A DNA stretch of 45,387 bases from Pseudomonadota bacterium (GTDB taxonomy: Bacteria > Pseudomonadota > Gammaproteobacteria > Steroidobacterales > Woeseiaceae). Below are positions 3,311 through 21,917 of the stretch, piece after piece. A program made the position numbers and the translations under genes. The stretch is taken from positions 1-45,387 of the forward strand of contig JACZWL010000026.1 in NCBI GenBank assembly GCA_022572185.1, read 5' to 3'. Within the stretch, counting starts at the first letter, position 1, and the number at the start of each line of letters is the position of its first letter. The notes under the pieces are model-generated. The model ran no database searches and was not told the origin of the DNA. It saw only the letters and a list, made by a program, of their open reading frames with translations.

Positions 3311-3543
3311 TGCACAGCGCCCCGACGGCGCGTCACCCGTTTTTGATCTAAAAGCCGAAAAACGAAAGTTTCCGTGATGCCGCTTTCCGCGAAGCCCTCC
3401 AAAGACGAGTAGACGGACTCGTCGGTGGTATTGGGGATACCGTACCATTCGTCGAATCCCTGGTCCGGTACTGACAAATTAACTTCTCGGCTCGTGCCAT
3501 TTTCCGTGCATGCACGACTTATGTGGCCGTAGCACAATTCCAA
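3307..3543 (-). pseudogene. Arylsulfatase fragment (degraded)
   Basis: The translation contains VPDQGFDEWYGIPNTTDES followed by SLEGFAESGITETFVF. This is the middle part of type I arylsulfatases, downstream of the GKWHLG region. Neither the N-terminal formylglycine motif (CxPxR) nor the rest of the enzyme is in the flanking sequence, so only about 60 residues of a roughly 500-residue enzyme remain. The left part runs straight into a transposase fragment and the right part into the formyltransferase start. I infer that an IS6-type insertion and later deletions destroyed the gene. Confidence 0.7.
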
Positions 3544-3746
3544 GACGCAAAGGCGCGTTGTCGGAATACTCGATAGTGTTTGGCCGATATCAAATGCCGC
3601 CCAAGATTGAAAAGATTGTAGACAGCAGCGTGCGTGCTCAGAAACCGTTGCGCCTGATGCGTTGACTTGAATCGCCGCATACCTCGCTCCCTAACTCTGG
3701 TTGGCTGATGAGAAAGCTCGGCTCGATTATTGGCGTATTCGGAAGT
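3519..3746 (-). pseudogene. IS6-family (DDE) transposase C-terminal remnant
   Basis: In the frame read leftward from about 3746 the product contains NNRAELSHQPTRVRERGM, then RRFKSTHQAQRFLSTHA and VYNLFNLGRHLISAKHYR. This is the C-terminal part of IS6-type transposases, including the catalytic Glu of NRAE. The upstream D-D part of the catalytic domain is absent; the open frame continues to 3869 with unrelated residues that overlap the next gene. No inverted repeat is visible at either side. It is a dead IS fragment that abuts the sulfatase fragment. Confidence 0.75.
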
Positions 3747-3819
3747 GTCATACGTACTGGGGGAAGTCCACCACGCTCGAAAGCGGACATTGGCATGTAG
3801 TTGGCTGCTGCCACAGAAA

Positions 3820-4200
3820 TTAGCCCAGACCATGGCCGCCAACAGGTGACGTCTCGAAGCGATCACCAAATCCCGCGATCATCGGCCTTCCATTCGCAAT
3901 TGCTTGTTGCACGGATTCAAGCGAAAGTGACCCTTCGTGGCTTTCCTTACTATCCCAGACCTCGGTAATCCACAAAACGTTGTCGTCCGCCAAATCTTTG
4001 GCGATGATATAGCTTAAGCAGCCCGGCATGTCCGTCGTTCCTTCGAGCAGAATAGCAATTAGCTCATTGCGTTTGCCATCATGGGCGATCATCTTGCCAA
4101 TAATCCCGTACATCTCAGACTTTTCCTTCAATGAATGGCAACCGCATAGCGAAACAAGCGCTGCCATGCAAGTGACCAAAGTAAATTTCCGGCGGTTCAT
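3820..4200 (-). CDS. Lipoprotein with antibiotic-biosynthesis-monooxygenase (ABM) domain
   Basis: The 126-residue product starts MNRRKFTLV, with a short hydrophobic segment ending in SLCGC, a plausible lipobox. The rest matches small ABM-fold proteins such as putative quinol monooxygenases: GKMIAHDGKRNEL, PGCLSYIIAKD, ITEVWDSKESHEGSLS, and the typical C-terminal FETSPVGGHGL. These are dimeric ferredoxin-like proteins, some with quinone monooxygenase activity; the substrate here is unknown. An export signal is unusual for the family. A TTG at 4209 in frame is an alternative start; the ATG at 4200 is preferred. Its 3' end overlaps the open frame that carries the IS6 remnant, so the gene lies right at the scar. 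Confidence 0.75.
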   Translation of the reverse strand: MNRRKFTLVTCMAALVSLCGCHSLKEKSEMYGIIGKMIAHDGKRNELIAILLEGTTDMPGCLSYIIAKDLADDNVLWITEVWDSKESHEGSLSLESVQQAIANGRPMIAGFGDRFETSPVGGHGLG

Positions 4201-7847: not shown

Positions 7848-8480
7848 ATGAAACTTCTAAATCATGAAGCCGAGTTTGAGCGGGCCTGGGCCGATCGCAG
7901 CAACACGCGATTCGAGCTGCCCCCGATCGACGTCAACCGGGTACTCGCCGAGCACTACCGCACGAGCGAACCGCTCACGTTCACCCGCACCATGCTGTGG
8001 GACATGGAGGTGCGGAAGGCATGGAGGCCCGACCGCTATATCCCATCCGTTGTACGGGAGGGGAGCGCCCACGCCTGGGGCCGGAGTTCGGCGGCCGACG
8101 GAACGGAATCCTTCGTACGGTCATCGCAGCAGCGACTTTGGCTTGAGCCCGTGGAATATGGGCTGGTCCTGGAACAAGTCTGCCTCAATCCCACGCAGCA
8201 GAAGGTTTCTTTCATCGGAGCAGCGGAACTTGCCGATCGCGACAGCAACCTTCTTCACGCCGGTGCGGGACAGCCTCTGTTTCATGTCGAGCACTCGGTT
8301 GACGGCGACGAATCGCAACCACTGAACAGGTGGCGTATCGCTCACCTCACCGACAGACTCGAGCACAGGCTGACTGAGCGGTTTACACTCATGGCGAACG
8401 ACGTGTGGCTGCCTGAGTTCATTGAGATCTACATCCGAAGTGACCTGGACATCAAGCTGACCCGTCGCGACATCTCCTGA
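7848..8480 (+). CDS. Hypothetical protein, last gene of the AzoR cluster
   Basis: I do not recognise this 210-residue protein. It has no signal peptide or membrane segment, is rich in Trp, Arg and acidic residues, and carries FTRTMLWDMEVRKAWRP near residue 50, and LEPVEYGLVLEQVCLNP and LANDVWLPEFIEIYIRSD-like stretches later. The ATG at 7848 is preferred over 7815, which would overlap the azoR end. Only eight bases separate it from azoR, so it probably belongs to the same operon. Confidence 0.65.
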   Translation: MKLLNHEAEFERAWADRSNTRFELPPIDVNRVLAEHYRTSEPLTFTRTMLWDMEVRKAWRPDRYIPSVVREGSAHAWGRSSAADGTESFVRSSQQRLWLEPVEYGLVLEQVCLNPTQQKVSFIGAAELADRDSNLLHAGAGQPLFHVEHSVDGDESQPLNRWRIAHLTDRLEHRLTERFTLMANDVWLPEFIEIYIRSDLDIKLTRRDIS

Positions 8481-9035
8481 CCCTCGTTGGGCTTCAGCGT
8501 TGGTGCCACTGAGAAGAAGTGTGAGATGAAACGAGCATTTTCCGCTGGAAGCAGCATCATTGAAGAAGATGCCCTTAGCAGAACAGGAAGAATGGAACGC
8601 CTTCTCGATCTGGCTATGAAGGACCGCTTATGGCGAAAGCGGCAACTCAGGATCCACACATATCGTGCATTCAACCAGAACAACCTGGCTCGTCACCGAG
8701 TCGCTCGAAGCTAGACGCATACATCTGCCAGAGTACTGCGGGAAATTTGCGTGTTACGGCTGCCGTTGATTGAGCCTGCCAAGTACAGGTAGGCCGATGA
8801 ACAAAAATCAGCGAAAATACGCCAATTTTCCCCATAGGTACCGATTTAGAGCATAGTCAGTAAATCGAACTCTGCGCAATTCGATGCGTCGTTTGCAGTT
8901 GTGCTGCTATGTGCCTGCTGGGCTTGCTAGTGATGGCCACAGCATAGGCTGCGCAAAATGTATGAAATGCAGAGTGTAACTAAAGTGCGTTGTCGCTCAC
9001 TGCCCCGCGCAACGCTCCGCCAGCTGATAACGTGC
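8481..9035. other. Gene-poor stretch at the left edge of the defence/IS island
   Basis: About 555 bases without a gene I can support. A 62-codon frame from ATG 8526 to 8714 follows a purine-rich stretch, but the product looks like no family I know and is matched by an equally long frame on the other strand. The section from about 8760 on is visibly AT-richer than the core genes. No hairpin with a T-run was found. Confidence 0.4.
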
Positions 9036-9275
9036 TTAAGTCACACCAAGACTCACCAGTTTGTTGTGTACTTCTTTCGCACGCTCCAACAACTGATCAT
9101 AAGTCCATATTTCGTCAACGTTTGATGATTCGAGCATCAGCTCAATATATGAATTCATATCTTCGTGACTTGCGAAAGACTGCTGGTTTGAGCGACTCAT
9201 AATTACGGCCGTCTTGTGCTTAGTGGCGATCCCCGGAAATCTATCCTTTATCTCCGTATAGTGATTTTTGATTTC
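9036..9275 (-). pseudogene. C-terminal part of the Shedu-like nuclease, beyond the amber codon
   Basis: Directly after the TAG at 9278-9276 the same frame stays open for 79 codons and ends in TAA at 9038-9036. It reads EIKNHYTEIKDRFPGIATKH, then KTAVIMSRSNQQSF, and ends with IWTYDQLLERAKEVHNKL. This is the expected C-terminal pattern of DUF4263 proteins: a Pro-Gly turn, a beta strand before a polar loop, and a final TYDxLLERAK helix. An internal ATG at 9200 could make a 54-residue piece but has no good ribosome binding site. I infer that it is the tail of the upstream gene, cut off by one substitution (CAG to TAG is the simplest). Confidence 0.75.
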
Positions 9276-10511
9276 CTATTGGAGCCATTCACCAGTTTGG
9301 AATGCTGCCTGATTGAAATCTTGCCTAGGGTGGCCTTTTCTCGTTGCCATCCCTTTGGACGGCCTCTCTATCTCGATTAGTTTGTAAGACCGATCCCGGT
9401 AGGAAATTATGCAATCGGGCTCTACGTGAACCTTTCCTATCGGCGATTTTTCACCCGCGGGATACTTAAATTTGGGCTTACTTTCACAGACGCCATAAGC
9501 GTCCAACAGAATCGGGTTTTCTTCTAGATACGAATGGAAAATATCCTCTGTTTCGGTAGCTTGTTGATGAAGAAGATCCTGCAAGCCGTCGATAGCCTGC
9601 TGGAGGTTGTCGAGGACAGTGTTAAATTCCCCAATCCAATCATCACTGCCGAATGAGATAGTGCCTCCGCCTTCAGGTCGCCGCGATATGTATTGGCCAA
9701 AATCCCTACGAACGTCGGCTTTAACTCGCACCCGAATATTTCTACAGTCCCAAGCTGCTTTTTCTCGATGCACAAGCACTTCGAGGTAATCATAAAATGT
9801 TTGTGAGTTTTCATCGGCCGGGAAAAACCCAAGCTGCCGAATTATTTGTGGCCCCCAAAAGTCGCTAGAATTATCTGGCAATTTGATATCCAAAACCCTA
9901 CAAAAGGCTCCATAGGTAAGTCGGGCGATAGCATCGCTCAAGGACAGGTCATAGGAATCTATTTGGATGCATCGATCGCCAGCGACTTTTTGCGTCGTTG
10001 CATCAATTGGTTCGCCAACAGTTCCTTCCCAAACTGCCTCTTCCAGCTTTTCCTTTGAGACAATTCTATATATCCCCAATTTCGTCCCTTGTTCGGCCAG
10101 TTCCTCCAGTAACTGAGTTACGCGATCAGGGGTCACAGTTGGTTCGTAGTCAATTTTTAGCGCCGCGCCGCCAGATTTCCGCCACTGATACTCCGGTGAA
10201 GTTTTGGAGTCAAAAATTACAACTCCATCATTGAGGACCATGCATTTCAGTCGCGCTGCGTTTAGATAGGGAGATATTGGAAATTTCGGATATCCGCCGC
10301 CTTTTGGCGGAGGTGCGGTGAATCGTTCATATTCGGATATGTACGCCGAAACATAGCGCTCCAAATACTTGCTGATATCTGACGAAGACGCCATTTGTGC
10401 AGGCAAGTTTTCTCCATTTTTTGTTTTCATAGCACGCGTGCGCCAGACCAAAATGGCTATAGAAACGGCGCCAAGCCCCGCGCCAATTGCAATTAAGCTA
10501 GTTGCTTCCAT
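9276..10511 (-). CDS. Membrane-anchored Shedu-like (DUF4263) nuclease, ended early by an amber codon
   Basis: Shedu proteins are single-gene anti-phage nucleases with a C-terminal PD-(D/E)XK domain. This 411-residue product has one membrane segment (about 4-23), a middle region I do not recognise (about 45-310) and the nuclease domain from about 323: FHSYLEENPILL, then VEPDCIISY (Asp366), KLIEIERPSKGMATRKGHPR (Glu380, Glu382) and QDFNQAAFQTGEW. The last catalytic position is Glu in IEIE rather than Lys. Translation stops at TAG 9276-9278 inside the domain, although the frame continues with matching sequence. The region is AT-richer than its surroundings, and an IS5 copy lies 233 bases upstream. 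Probably inactive as it stands, unless the amber codon is suppressed. Confidence 0.78.
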   Translation of the reverse strand: MEATSLIAIGAGLGAVSIAILVWRTRAMKTKNGENLPAQMASSSDISKYLERYVSAYISEYERFTAPPPKGGGYPKFPISPYLNAARLKCMVLNDGVVIFDSKTSPEYQWRKSGGAALKIDYEPTVTPDRVTQLLEELAEQGTKLGIYRIVSKEKLEEAVWEGTVGEPIDATTQKVAGDRCIQIDSYDLSLSDAIARLTYGAFCRVLDIKLPDNSSDFWGPQIIRQLGFFPADENSQTFYDYLEVLVHREKAAWDCRNIRVRVKADVRRDFGQYISRRPEGGGTISFGSDDWIGEFNTVLDNLQQAIDGLQDLLHQQATETEDIFHSYLEENPILLDAYGVCESKPKFKYPAGEKSPIGKVHVEPDCIISYRDRSYKLIEIERPSKGMATRKGHPRQDFNQAAFQTGEWLQ

Positions 10512-10743
10512 TTAGCCGACCGCAGCTATGATTCTAGCGCGTCGCGATCTAAAGCATACACGTAAACATTCTTCTCTTGAGGCAACCACGGACCGCCATG
10601 CAAGAATATCCGGCTCATTATGCGGCAAAACAATCTCAGAAATCGTACTACACCTCGGTCGACACGAACCGCCGCGATATAGAATCGAGGTAGCGATTCT
10701 TCGCCTCTAGGTTATGTCGGCGTATTATCGGCCTATCCGTTAG

Positions 10744-10761
10744 GGAAGCTCTGATTTATTC
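10744..10761 (+). repeat. IS5 left terminal inverted repeat
   Basis: GGAAGCTCTGATTTATTC begins right after the TTAG duplication and matches the reverse complement of the right end at 14 of 18 positions. Confidence 0.85.
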
Positions 10762-10814
10762 AGTGAAAGGTTATAATACAGATCGTTATTCAATGCCGCA
10801 CGGAGATATTGATA

Positions 10815-11771
10815 ATGCGTCAGCAAACGCTCGCCGATAATGGTTTCGAACGTTTTCGCAAGCGAACGCGTCGGGAGACGTTTTTGCTGGAGATGGATCA
10901 GATTATTCCGTGGCGCGATCTGTGCAAAGTGATCAAGCCGTTCTATCCGAAGCGAAAGGGTGCGGGCCGCCCAACAGTTGGATTGGAGCGGATGCTGCGC
11001 ATTCATTTTCTGCAACACTGGTTCAACCTCTCAGATCCGGCGGTTGAAGAGGCACTGTACGATTCACGTGCCATGCGCAGTTTTGTTGGCATCGATCTGG
11101 GTCGCGAACCGGCACCGGATGAAACGACGGTGTGTAAGTTCCGCCATTTGCTGGAGTCACACAACCTGGGCGGCCAGCTATTCAGCCTGATTAACGAATA
11201 CCTTGAGGAGAACGGTCTCAAAGTCAGTACCGGCACGATTGTGGATGCCACCATCATTGATGCACCGACCTCGACCAAGAACAAAGATAAAAAGCGCGAC
11301 CCGGAGATGCACCAGACGAAGAAAGGCAACCAATGGTACTTTGGCATGAAGGGGCATATTGGTGTCGACAGTAAGACCAAGCTGATCCATTCGGTGGCAG
11401 CCACCGCGGCGAACGTACACGACAGCCAGTTACTGGGGGACCTGTTGCACGGCGATGAAACCCGGGTGTGGGGAGATTCTGCCTACTCGGGCCAGCGCGA
11501 TGTCATTGTAGAACACGCGCCGCATGCCAAGGACTTTACCAACAAAAAAGGTGCTCGCAATCGGCCGTTAAGCGCCGAGGAGAAATCGAAGAATCGCACC
11601 AAGTCGAAGGTCAGGGTGAAAGCCGAGCATCCGTTCCTGATTCTCAAGCGAATCTTTGGTTTCAATAAGGTTCGTTATCAAGGCCTGGACAAGAATGCCA
11701 ACCGCCTGTTTGTTGCTTGTGGGCTAGTGAATTTGTACATGGCGCGCAGACAATTATTGCGACCAACATAG
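10815..11771 (+). CDS. IS5-family DDE transposase
   Basis: The 318-residue transposase has the N-terminal DNA-binding part (KRKGAGRPTVGLERMLRIHF) and the DDE domain: Asp in GTIVDATIIDAPTS, Asp in VWGDSAYSGQ, and Glu in KAEHPFLILKRIFG. It ends with VACGLVNLYMARRQLL, as in the IS5 subgroup. ATG 10815 is preferred over a TTG six bases earlier; GGAG lies nine bases upstream. No frameshift or internal stop is present, so it should be active. Confidence 0.95.
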   Translation: MRQQTLADNGFERFRKRTRRETFLLEMDQIIPWRDLCKVIKPFYPKRKGAGRPTVGLERMLRIHFLQHWFNLSDPAVEEALYDSRAMRSFVGIDLGREPAPDETTVCKFRHLLESHNLGGQLFSLINEYLEENGLKVSTGTIVDATIIDAPTSTKNKDKKRDPEMHQTKKGNQWYFGMKGHIGVDSKTKLIHSVAATAANVHDSQLLGDLLHGDETRVWGDSAYSGQRDVIVEHAPHAKDFTNKKGARNRPLSAEEKSKNRTKSKVRVKAEHPFLILKRIFGFNKVRYQGLDKNANRLFVACGLVNLYMARRQLLRPT

Positions 11772-11913
11772 GACAGGTGCGTCTGAAATTTACCATTGAT
11801 CAAAAAAACCGTGCATAGCGGTAAAACAAACGGACTAAACGCCCCAATCACAAAGCATTTTCCAAATATTTGAACGCGTAATAAAGAAATTACTTCAACA
11901 CATTTGAAAACAC

Positions 11914-11931
11914 GAATTGATCAGACTTTCC
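11914..11931 (-). repeat. IS5 right terminal inverted repeat
   Basis: The plus strand reads GAATTGATCAGACTTTCC, followed at once by the TTAG target copy. It lies 142 bases after the transposase stop. Confidence 0.85.
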
Positions 11932-12056
11932 TTAGATTATTACTGTAAGGTCAATAGCTTATAAAGGATGGTTAAGCTTGGCCAAGGCGACCTCAAACGT
12001 TTTTGTCGACTATGCGATTTGGCAGGTATTTTGATAATTTGAATGCTTAGTTAAAA

Positions 12057-12143
12057 GCCCAGGTGGCGGAATTGGTAGACGCGCGGCGTTCAGGTCGCCG
12101 TGTCCTTACGGGTGTGCGAGTTCGAGTCTCGCCCTGGGCACCA
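12057..12143 (+). tRNA. tRNA-Leu (anticodon CAG)
   Basis: The acceptor arms GCCCAGG and CCTGGGC pair over seven bases, and the CCA end is encoded. The anticodon stem CGGCG/CGCCG carries the loop TTCAGGT, with CAG at 12091-12093. A D-arm with GGTAGAC, a long variable arm and GTTCGAGTC complete a class II leucine tRNA of 87 bases. It stands just right of the Shedu/IS5 island; no att repeat is seen. Confidence 0.97.
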
Positions 12144-12152
12144 AATGCGACA

Positions 12153-12173
12153 GGGCTCCCCAAGAGGGAGCCC
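12153..12173 (+). terminator. Terminator after tRNA-Leu
   Basis: GGGCTCCC and GGGAGCCC form a perfect 8-bp stem around the loop CAAGA, followed by GTTTCTATTCT. It starts nine bases after the tRNA CCA end and is a plausible Rho-independent terminator with a weak T-run. Confidence 0.75.
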
Positions 12174-12212
12174 GTTTCTATTCTGGCGTGTAAGAATTTA
12201 TCTCCCTCCTGA

Positions 12213-12530
12213 CTTGTCTGCAACGCGCCGCCCGATGAATCGGAAGCAGTGCAATCCGAGAGCCTTACAACCGCGAAACCCCAGCCCTATGTCGCCCCTG
12301 CTCAGCCGGACATCAAAGCGCCTGCTGCTGCTGAAATGGATGGCGAAAAACAATCAGCGCAGCCGGAGATCGAGATACCTCCGTTAGTCCAGAAAGTAGA
12401 CATTACGACAATGAGTGTCGCGGACCTGGATCGCCGCTGCCCCTGTGCGGTGTCGCCGCGGCGGCGCTATACTGGAGGCCTTGGGCCTGCTATATCGTCA
12501 ATGCTTTCAGAGGCATGCACAGATTATTGA
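12213..12530 (+). other. Open frame of doubtful status before the transglycosylase gene
   Basis: A frame open from 12213 to a TGA at 12530 contains a Pro/Ala/Glu-rich stretch (PQPYVAPAQPDIKAPAAAEM) and then VQKVDITTMSVADLDRR. The composition looks more like coding sequence than chance, but there is no clear start (GTG at 12249 lacks a ribosome binding site), and the end overlaps the next gene. It may be the remnant of a longer gene. I assign no function. Confidence 0.3.
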
Positions 12531-13165
12531 AAACTTCGGTTAAGAATGCTGCGGCTCCCTTGCGGGCAGGCTCTCTGCTGTTGGGCGCGCTCTGGATTGT
12601 CGTGACTGGCGCCTGCGCTACGGCCCCGCCGGCAAACGTCGAGGACATCTGTGCGATCTTCGAGGAGAAGCGCGGCTGGTACAAAGCTGCGAAGAAATCG
12701 GAAAAGCGATGGGGCACCCCGAAACACGTGCAAATGTCGATCATTCGCCAGGAATCGTCGTTCAGGTTCGATGCGAAACCGCCGCGGACCAAACTATTGG
12801 GGTTTATACCCTGGAAGCGTCCGTCGGACGCCTACGGCTATGCACAGGCGCTGGACAGTACCTGGGAATGGTACAAGGATGACAGCGGTCGACGATTCGC
12901 GGACCGTGATGACTTCGATGACGCCATTGACTTCGTTGGCTGGTACACGAACATGTCCAACAAGTCCGTGGGTATCTCGAAATGGGATCCTTATAATCAG
13001 TATCTCGCTTACCATGAAGGCCACGCCGGTTGGCGTCGCGGAACCTACCGGCGAAAAAGCGGGCTCAAGAAGACAGCCCGCCAGGTCGACTACCGGGCGA
13101 GGGAATGGGGCGCGCAGCTGCAGCGCTGCGAAGACGACCTCAACGATGGCTGGTGGATATTCTGA
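12515..13165 (+). CDS. Transglycosylase SLT-like lipoprotein
   Basis: The product (216 residues) has a signal peptide with lipobox VTGAC (Cys34) and a lysozyme-like fold: Glu80 in MSIIRQESSFRFDAK is in the position of the catalytic Glu of SLT domains, followed by DAYGYAQALDSTWEWYK, VGWYTNMSN and YLAYHEGHAGWRRGTY. It resembles uncharacterised lipoproteins of the COG4764 type. It is probably outer-membrane attached and acts on peptidoglycan, but activity is not proven for this group. It stands alone on the plus strand. Confidence 0.82.
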   Translation: MHRLLKTSVKNAAAPLRAGSLLLGALWIVVTGACATAPPANVEDICAIFEEKRGWYKAAKKSEKRWGTPKHVQMSIIRQESSFRFDAKPPRTKLLGFIPWKRPSDAYGYAQALDSTWEWYKDDSGRRFADRDDFDDAIDFVGWYTNMSNKSVGISKWDPYNQYLAYHEGHAGWRRGTYRRKSGLKKTARQVDYRAREWGAQLQRCEDDLNDGWWIF

Positions 13166-17614: not shown

Positions 17615-17993
17615 CGAGACTGACCAGCCGCTTCGCTACCGAAAGAGTCCGCTGGAAGATTTCGCCGAGACGCGGCTCTAAATTCATCGGCTCCGCCGCT
17701 GGCGAGCCCTCGTCCGTCAGCCGGGAAGAACGAGCATCCCGCTCCCTGCCGCAGGACCAGTTTCTGCCGGCGTCCTGTGCACCGACGCGCTGCGCGCAAA
17801 AAACACCCAAGCACCTGATTTTGCCACTCAGGGCGGTGCCAGGACCCATCCTCACCTGTTCCTCAGCACACCATCAGGAATTCTTACAAAAACAATTACT
17901 TTTCAATCAGTAACTTACAAGCGTTCATCCCTACATTTGATTCCACGGCAACGGGCCTTGCCGCAACGGCAGAAAGCCAAAACGGAGTCAGAG
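17615..17993. other. Intergenic region before the phospholipase D gene
   Basis: About 379 bases. A small inverted repeat (GTAGCGA at 17612-17618 and TCGCTAC at 17633-17639) overlaps the preceding stop codon and may help termination. The last 120 bases are AT-rich and probably hold the promoter of the next gene. No gene is supported; an open frame on the minus strand (17545-17814) has no clear start. Confidence 0.4.
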
Positions 17994-19553
17994 ATGAACA
18001 GCACAAACCGCAACAAGACATTCGCTCAGGCAGCACTCAAGAGTGCCGCATGCCTGGTGCTTCTGAACACAGTGCTGTCGGGATGTGCCAGCAGCCCTGA
18101 TGCCCGGCAGGCAAGCTTCGTTGATGAATTGGAGATTTACGAGGAAGTCGCAGTTCAAGGCCCGCTTGCGGATCCGCGGCGTATCCGCAGCAGAAAAAGA
18201 GTACGAAAGGCAGCCGGTGCATCGCAAGCCGCCGTTTTGTATGCCCGCTCCATTTACATCGATCCGATTAACCGGCCGGTATCAAATGCGGCGTCACTCG
18301 CCTCTTTCGTTTTGAAGTCAACGACCGGCTTTTTCCGTCGCCTGAGCCTGGACACGATCCAGCTTCCGTCTCTGGAGAACACGGCGATCCCCGATGTCGT
18401 CCATGGCGATGGCATGGATCTCGAGCAGTGGGAGAAAGACCTCGACAAGATCGTCGGCCACAGGAGCTCGACCGGCAAGATCGACTTCCTGGTCGATGGC
18501 GAGCAGTACTTCCCGCGTTTGCTGGAGTCTTTCAGGGATGCGGAGGAGTCGATCAACATACGGACCTACATCTTCGACAACGACGACTTCGCCGTTGAGG
18601 TCGCGGACATTCTCAAAGAAAAATCAAAGGACGTGAAGGTCCGGATCCAGATTGATGCCCTCGGCAACCTGGTGGCAATGCAGGCGGACGCAAAATCTTT
18701 GCCAGCCAGCCACAACGGCCCGCTGTCGATTTCCCGGTACCTGCGCAAGGACTCGAAGGTCAAGGTACGAAATCGCGCGAACCCGTTTCTGTACATGGGA
18801 GATCACACCAAGACCACGATCATCGATAAAAAGATAGCTTTTGTCGGTGGCATGAACATAGGGCGCGAGTATCGCTACGACTGGCACGACCTGATGATGG
18901 AGGTCAGCGGCCCGATCGTTGACCAGCTGCAATACGATTCAGACAAGGCATGGGCCCGGGCCAGCGTATTCGGCGATGCCGCCAATTTCCTGCGTATCCT
19001 GGGCGGCAAAAAGAAGCGTGCCGGTGATGCAGGCTACCCGGTGCGCACTCTCTATACACGTAATTTCGATTCACAGATTCACCGGGCACAGCTTGCCGCC
19101 ATTCGCCGGGCGCAGAGCTACATCCTGATCGAGAACTCTTATTTCGCCGACGACCTGATCACCTATGAGCTGATCAAGGCACGCCGCCGCGGTGTTGACG
19201 TCCGTGTCATTCTGACTGCGGATGGGAATCACGGAACGCTGAATGCCAGCAACCAGGTTGCTATCAACACGCTGCTCGACCACGGCATCCGGGTATTCGC
19301 CTACCCCCGTATGAGCCATGTCAAAGCGGCCGTTTTCGACGGCTGGGCCTGTGTCGGTTCGGCGAACTATGACAAGCTAAGCCTGGAAGTTAACAAGGAG
19401 CTGAATCTCGCCACATCGCATAAGGAAACCGTTGACAGGCTTCTGGACGAGTTGTTCATCCCTGATCTGGAGATGTCGCGGGAAATTACCGAGCACGTCG
19501 ACGTGTCGGTCGCTCAACTCCTGACGGAAAAACTAGTTGACGAGTTGCTGTAA
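17994..19553 (+). CDS. Phospholipase D-family lipoprotein (cardiolipin synthase-like)
   Basis: The 519-residue product has a lipoprotein signal (VLSGC, Cys31) and two PLD domains with HxKxxxxD motifs: HTKTTIIDKKIAFVGGMNIG and HVKAAVFDGWACVGSANYD. PLD enzymes form a covalent phosphohistidine and cleave or transfer phosphodiester groups; cardiolipin synthases and the DUF-type envelope PLDs share this plan. ATG 17994 is preferred, with GGAG seven bases upstream; the open frame reaches 17937. The lipid anchor puts it at the envelope, so a phospholipid substrate is likely, but not proven. Confidence 0.87.
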   Translation: MNSTNRNKTFAQAALKSAACLVLLNTVLSGCASSPDARQASFVDELEIYEEVAVQGPLADPRRIRSRKRVRKAAGASQAAVLYARSIYIDPINRPVSNAASLASFVLKSTTGFFRRLSLDTIQLPSLENTAIPDVVHGDGMDLEQWEKDLDKIVGHRSSTGKIDFLVDGEQYFPRLLESFRDAEESINIRTYIFDNDDFAVEVADILKEKSKDVKVRIQIDALGNLVAMQADAKSLPASHNGPLSISRYLRKDSKVKVRNRANPFLYMGDHTKTTIIDKKIAFVGGMNIGREYRYDWHDLMMEVSGPIVDQLQYDSDKAWARASVFGDAANFLRILGGKKKRAGDAGYPVRTLYTRNFDSQIHRAQLAAIRRAQSYILIENSYFADDLITYELIKARRRGVDVRVILTADGNHGTLNASNQVAINTLLDHGIRVFAYPRMSHVKAAVFDGWACVGSANYDKLSLEVNKELNLATSHKETVDRLLDELFIPDLEMSREITEHVDVSVAQLLTEKLVDELL

Positions 19554-20805: not shown

Positions 20806-21044
20806 GTCATGCCCCGTAATTAAAGATCTGGAGTCAAAAAATCACTGTGCCGTGACCGTAGCAGGCCTATCACGCGAGCGGCTGTGACAGTATTCACAAA
20901 TCAACCGCAGAGTGCCGGGACAGGCCAGATACATAGGCCCCGCCGCCATTCAAAAGACCTTCAATGTGATCTGTGTCACAGGGGACGAGACGCCCCGCCA
21001 TGCTAACCTGCGCTATTCGGAATCTGCCGTCAGGACACGCCTGT

Positions 21045-21917
21045 ATGAATCCAGAGGCTTTAAGTGGCGCAGCGTCGATCGCGCTGCTTAGCACCATTGT
21101 GTTTTTGCTGCTTGCAAAATCGTGCCAGGCCATCGCCAGATTCGTCGGCAGCACAAGCCGCTTCCCGGCCAGCATCATGCATGAGCCAGCGCAGCGATTT
21201 CGGGACGAGATGGATCATCTCACACGCCGCCTTCATGTGTATCTGACATCTGCGCTCGTTTTTGTCGTTGTTTTTGCGGTTAGCTATTTCCTCAGGCCCG
21301 GAGCACTTTTCAGCACCCTGCCAACCTGGCAATTGGCGATAATACTCGCGGTCTTGTCCGTTGTTTCGCTATACGAGGCTTACCGATTTGTCACTGTGCT
21401 GCTGGCCAGACGCCGAGCTGCCTTCCTGCGTGATGCCAATATCGCCGCCGGCCATGAATTACAGAAACTCACGGCTAACCGGAACCGTATATTTCACGAC
21501 GTGCCCTGTGGCACCGGCATTATCGATAACGTCATCGTCGGTTCCCACGGCATCTATACCGTAAACATCGTTGCCCGCAGAACGCGCAAAGACAACACCG
21601 TCCGTCTGACCGGCGACACCCTCGAATTTGCTCCCGGCAATTATTCTTTGCCGCTCGGCGAGTTTGCGCAACGCGCGCAGCAATTGGCGCGCGAGCTCCG
21701 GAAAGTCCTGAAGCATGACGTGCGCGTTCGCTCCGTCGTTGCAGTGCCCGGATGGGAAATCGACTCACAGTCAAGTGACGAGCATCTGATCGTCAACGAA
21801 CGCAATCTTGCAATGCTGCGTGGTTGGAAAGACCAGAATGATTACCTGTTGAACGAAGAGGTCGAGAAGCTTCAGAAACTGTTGGCCGCTCGCTGTATGC
21901 GGTTCGGCAAAAAATAA
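21045..21917 (+). CDS. Membrane protein with a NERD-like domain, active site altered
   Basis: The 290-residue product has three membrane segments (about 9-27, 66-83, 96-120), then a domain with the shape of the nuclease-related domain: AAGHELQKL, RIFHDVPCGTGIIDNVIVG and SHGIYTVNIVARRTRKDN. In NERD proteins the strand after the Asp reads IExK; here it is VNIVAR (about 173-178), so the Glu and Lys needed for cleavage are missing, while Asp161 is kept. It is probably not a nuclease but may keep the fold. ATG 21045 is chosen because CAGGA lies about nine bases upstream; the open frame begins at 20973. Confidence 0.65.
   Translation: MNPEALSGAASIALLSTIVFLLLAKSCQAIARFVGSTSRFPASIMHEPAQRFRDEMDHLTRRLHVYLTSALVFVVVFAVSYFLRPGALFSTLPTWQLAIILAVLSVVSLYEAYRFVTVLLARRRAAFLRDANIAAGHELQKLTANRNRIFHDVPCGTGIIDNVIVGSHGIYTVNIVARRTRKDNTVRLTGDTLEFAPGNYSLPLGEFAQRAQQLARELRKVLKHDVRVRSVVAVPGWEIDSQSSDEHLIVNERNLAMLRGWKDQNDYLLNEEVEKLQKLLAARCMRFGKK

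Follow-up and report, generated by a model that had tools for sequence, protein, structure and literature searches.

In the Woeseiaceae genome assembly GCA_022572185.1, a minus-strand reading frame for a Shedu (SduA) nuclease is interrupted by a single in-frame TAG, which falls before the last sixth of this gene for a virus-fighting, DNA-cutting protein. Family models match on both sides of the stop, the stop is absent from the ten relatives examined, and the part of the gene beyond it is no more decayed than the part before it. With a probability of roughly 0.78, we interpret the locus as a probably laterally acquired Shedu gene, of the type described by PADLOC model PDLC00404 and with an E-x-E motif, that was recently inactivated by the TAG. 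The gene is probably undergoing loss at its present site, where the entire tail can still be read. The analyzed stretch of DNA (45,387 nucleotides; referred to here as the window) is contig C15 (JACZWL010000026.1) of a draft genome of 3.14 Mb in 99 contigs.

A Shedu frame with one in-frame TAG

The frame occupies positions 9036 to 10511 on the minus strand and comprises 491 codons besides its TAA, including one internal TAG. Read directly, it runs from an ATG at 10511 to the TAG at 9276 to 9278, which is codon 412 and follows the residues ...QDFNQAAFQTGEWLQ. Past this stop, a tail of 79 more open codons (9039 to 9275) leads to a TAA at 9036 to 9038. These positions exactly reproduce the split frame described in a first-pass annotation. 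Where a functional Shedu gene would be uninterrupted, this one is broken at codon 412; its translation revealed no other stop or shift, and codon usage favored the frame both before and after the TAG. No second copy was found in the same genome at an E value of 1e-3.

Assignment to Shedu was supported by two family models that cross codon 412, so that the earlier description of a Shedu gene split by one in-frame TAG stands. The nuclease domain family PF14082 (SduA_C) matched the read-through protein at residues 320 to 475 (positions 9087 to 9554, minus strand), spanning the TAG, with an E value of 3.3e-13 and 50.6 bits (cut-off, 27); the part before the TAG alone still scored 35.9 bits over profile positions 2 to 85 of 159. 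PDLC00404, the PADLOC SduA model, matched the whole protein, at residues 44 to 489 (8.6e-165). The model starts after the N-terminal extension of the window protein and meets the stop at about model position 376 to 377. The tail alone matched model positions 378 to 453 (2.1e-24), so the proposed likeness of these 79 codons to the DUF4263/Shedu family was confirmed. NCBIfam gave no match to the protein at 0.001.

The putative catalytic stretch, D366...E380-x-E382 (9366 to 9416, minus strand), lies wholly upstream of the TAG, and all three residues were invariant in a six-row alignment. D366 and E380 provide the catalytic Asp and first Glu expected of Shedu, a role suggested by the fold. An AlphaFold model built from six sequences had a mean pLDDT of 49.7 and was usable only at about residues 294 to 484. 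Its nuclease part resembled the PD-(D/E)xK fold of E. coli SduA (8ps4 and 8ps5; Z 10.9 for 8ps4, over 183 residues at 5.0 Å) and of B. cereus Shedu (8ti8 and 8ti9; Z 9.4 for 8ti9, over 156 residues). By sequence, a profile of six relatives and the window protein, tail included, found B. cereus Shedu at 3e-5 and E. coli SduA at 0.011, the latter mainly in the tail. The window protein alone, or a profile of the closer relatives, gave only a chance match in the PDB and found neither solved Shedu; the distant relatives L004 and L003 as queries found nothing there.

The stop site and the E-x-E motif in relatives

Ten relatives were collected, and PF14082 matched all of them. Five closer ones, with 38 to 48% identity along the aligned parts, came from a Cellvibrionaceae MAG (L010), Pseudomonas sp. 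Irchel 3E13 (L011), and IMG/VR contigs (L006, L013, and L015). They were found by a fixed-spacing E-x-E...Q...W pattern and then by alignment. All five share the E-x-E site, and no interruption was seen in any of them (L006 extends past the end of its contig). They differ from the window copy in that no N-terminal membrane segment was found and that the stop site has one codon fewer. The other five (L003, L004, L005, L007, and L012) are distant.

A Shedu gene of this type is rare. The window protein alone as a query found no relative in genome contigs or viral contigs, nor did it find one in plasmids or phages, where a relative used as the query likewise found none. E. coli genomes gave no match by blastn, an alignment with three distant homologs led to one pattern with 67 candidates and no relative, and an ENP..LLDAYG pattern also found no relative. 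The 21 bases around the TAG had no match in viral contigs, and a final scan of viral contigs returned only the same three contigs again. Genomes around the host were sampled in overlapping sets with different thresholds, which yielded matches in 0 of 368 genomes at 1e-20, 0 of 106 at 1e-5, 0 of 320 at 1e-3, 1 of 397 at 1e-6 (G586), 2 of 395 at 1e-4 (G012 and G1085), and 1 of 78 at 1e-3, which was G586 itself; a protein query against 59 other genomes at 1e-3 matched none. Besides the window's own genome, only G586, G1085, and G012 matched among the sampled genomes, all of them weakly. Since 60 sampled genomes included no genus mate of the window genome, there was no near relative by which to date the stop.

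At the stop site, sense codons were present in all nine relatives aligned by motif and in the tenth, L012, which had no motif match in the alignment script because its spacing differs; read by eye, it has a Tyr at the stop's distance from the Trp. The stop is therefore seen only in the window copy, and none of the ten relatives ends at this codon. After the conserved Trp409, the window copy continues with L-Q-stop-E-I-K, and the closer relatives continue after the same Trp with K-H-Y-I (L011, L013, and L006), V-H-Y-I (L010), or K-H-F-I (L015). The interval from Trp409 to Ile414 thus spans four codons in the window copy versus three residues in these five. Placing of the gap varies: one alignment sets Tyr, Phe, or Trp against the stop (among the distant relatives, Trp in L007, L003, and L004 and Tyr in L005), and others set His there. 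Since L003 and L004 can be aligned without a gap at the stop site, as in another alignment, an extra codon is established only in comparison with the five closer relatives. It adjoins or equals the TAG, and the stop itself may be the added codon. The first-pass annotation had noted that there was no insertion, which is true of the reading frame but not of the comparison with the five closer relatives. It had also proposed a recent change from CAG to TAG. Under every gap placing, the five closer relatives have no Gln among the three residues that separate the conserved Trp from the Ile; because of this and of the extra codon, such a plain step is unsupported, though still conceivable.

At the place of IEIE in the window protein, E-I-K and E-V-K occur in the two solved Shedu proteins, according to a profile alignment in which the E. 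coli stretch scores poorly. In place of the Lys of E-x-K, the window protein has Glu382, and a Glu was likewise found in 10 of 10 relatives (nine by alignment and L012 by eye). The motif had been called unusual, which holds against the two solved Shedu proteins but not within the group, where E-x-E is common to all ten relatives. Patterns that included all or part of this motif supplied six of the ten. The remaining four were picked independently of it: the PADLOC profile found L003, L004, and L005, and a different stretch gave the match to L010. Because Pfam and PADLOC still assign the group to SduA, we take E-x-E as the mark of a Shedu subgroup (L003, L004, L005, L006, L007, L010 to L013, and L015) and not as a reason for exclusion. 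Replacement of Lys by Glu occurs in restriction enzymes, BamHI being the example in passages of a review (PMC4081073). The likeness to the BamHI-type active site, which according to the same passages has Glu for the usual Lys, is an analogy of one residue and implies no closer kinship.

Age of the break and origin of the gene

Of the residues invariant among the five closer relatives, the window copy kept 45 of 65 in residues 40 to 319, 43 of 52 in the part of the nuclease domain upstream of the stop, and 22 of 30 in the tail. Retention in the tail did not differ from that in all upstream columns (22/30 versus 88/117; Fisher p 0.82). In a rough simulation, which takes the upstream rate of keeping as given, the joint chance of such retention and of no new stop was 0.04 after 0.1 neutral substitutions per site and <0.01 after 0.15. 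The break has therefore probably been followed by no more than about 0.1 neutral substitutions per site. As decay in the tail does not exceed that elsewhere in the gene, the break is either recent or a sequence error that does not exist in the cell. The undecayed tail and the absence of the stop from ten relatives agree with the earlier view that a fresh pseudogene is the simplest explanation.

The TAG is known here from one draft assembly and might be absent from the living cell. A sequencing or assembly error, or a minority allele with the gene intact in most cells, would leave an undecayed tail just as a recent inactivation or a read-through stop would, and it would also suit a single private lesion in a draft of 99 contigs without a second lesion in the gene. 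We nevertheless consider this explanation unlikely, if worth keeping in mind, since the window copy also exceeds the five closer relatives by an entire codon at this very site, for which one miscalled base is insufficient, and no other stop or shift occurs in the frame.

Recent inactivation would have struck a gene that was probably acquired laterally. GC content was 0.42 to 0.48 along the Shedu frame, compared with 0.55 for the window and 0.53 to 0.61 for 25 other gene models. Among the relatives, an integrase gene was found near L013, and phage baseplate and other phage-type genes were found beside L011. Both observations fit a lateral origin.

Upstream of the Shedu gene, the plus strand carries an IS5-family element at 10740 to 11936 (transposase, 10809 to 11771), whose left end was placed from contig breaks and whose right end was placed by eye. 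The starts of contigs C1 and C35 fall within copies of this left end (100% and 87% identity, respectively). The element was rejected as the cause of the break, its left end being 228 bases from the ATG. A tRNA-Leu (CAG) gene follows at 12057 to 12143 (plus strand), beside the low-GC segment. The idea of an island marked by a repeated tRNA end was rejected, the window containing one match only, as was the use of conserved synteny to show an empty site, with no tRNA beside the SLT gene in the loci of 11 relatives. Elsewhere in the window, we observed a PLD-domain protein (17937 to 19553) that weakly matched PADLOC DrmC (5e-8) and may be an ordinary phospholipase D, a protein with a NERD (nuclease-related) domain (20973 to 21917; 7e-6), and a piece of an IS240-type DDE transposase, probably a remnant (3519 to 3869).

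A second shortened gene was seen in another genus of the same family, where the distant relative L005 (contig C61 of G012, at the contig end; 1444 to 1929) ends at nearly the same place, covering SduA_C positions 4 to 89 of 159. IS66-type genes lie directly beside it. This truncation is probably an independent loss, and its end beside IS66-type genes suggests that such losses happen in this group.

Expected loss of function and its meaning

Translation of the gene would end after 411 residues, with the putative catalytic residues D366, E380, and E382 still made. In the structure model, which is weak at residues 385 to 420 (pLDDT of <50 at 385 to 399 and of about 58 to 59 at 401 to 420, around the TAG), the stop is predicted to fall within a helix at 401 to 416. 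The product would lack the end of this helix, which follows the active-site strand, together with the subsequent beta-strand (432 to 437) and the last helices (449 to 462 and 471 to 487) of the PD-(D/E)xK domain. With its nuclease domain thus incomplete, the truncated protein most likely is unstable or lacks activity. For E. coli SduA, passages of a review (PMC12904381) describe binding of DNA ends by an N-terminal clamp and nicking at a fixed distance, and they state that the N-terminal parts vary among Shedu systems. By analogy, an intact relative would be a one-gene nuclease in which the variable N-terminal part senses phage DNA and the C-terminal domain cuts.

It is also conceivable, if quite improbable, that the 411-residue product is useful itself, for example as a DNA-binding sensor or as a dominant partner without cutting. 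The N-terminal part and the putative catalytic residues precede the stop and are partly conserved, and the pre-TAG part still exceeds the Pfam cut-off, which speaks against inactivation. Relatives, however, keep the tail, except for L006, which runs off its contig, and L005, which is apparently cut beside IS66-type genes; moreover, the tail is modeled to supply a strand and helices of the nuclease domain.

A still smaller chance is left for useful read-through of the TAG, by suppression or context, with some full-length nuclease being made and the stop acting as a dosage brake on a toxic enzyme. Heterologous expression of Shedu leads to toxicity according to the same review (PMC12904381), the tail is undecayed, and the frame is coding on both sides of the TAG. 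TAG, however, is an ordinary stop in the window, where it ends 7 of 25 gene models, including conserved ones with matches to adenylosuccinate synthetase, a band 7 protein, and MutL. These endings bear out the first-pass annotation on TAG as a normal stop, and genetic recoding, already judged unlikely there, was rejected. In the genome, 34 tRNA matches were found, of which 33 were typed and one weak match was not called by ARAGORN. None of the 33 has a CUA anticodon, in a list that is incomplete since it contains no Asp, Phe, or Ile tRNA. Rfam at E values up to 1 found nothing over 8400 to 12600 except the tRNA, and no relative examined has a stop at this site.

The most elaborate version, a membrane-tethered E-x-E Shedu whose dose is limited by a leaky amber codon in the nuclease domain, with rare read-through giving the active enzyme, is the least probable of all. 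Codons 1 to 39 (10395 to 10511, minus strand) form an extension with a hydrophobic segment, in a frame that scores as coding, with a helix predicted at residues 7 to 26 (pLDDT of <50). No such extension was seen in the closer relatives, whose starts lie near codon 40; in four of the five, in-frame starts reach no further than 5 codons ahead of the corresponding position, and L006, which reaches its contig end there, was excluded from this comparison. The protein had been described as membrane-anchored; a hydrophobic N-terminal segment is indeed present in the frame, but the start is uncertain, with the closer relatives beginning near codon 40.

Most likely a recently inactivated gene, the window copy adds one broken member to a known one-gene defense family and represents ordinary loss of a defense gene. 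The part of the finding that might repay work is the rare E-x-E subgroup, whose intact members near phage-type genes could show whether the Lys matters in Shedu.
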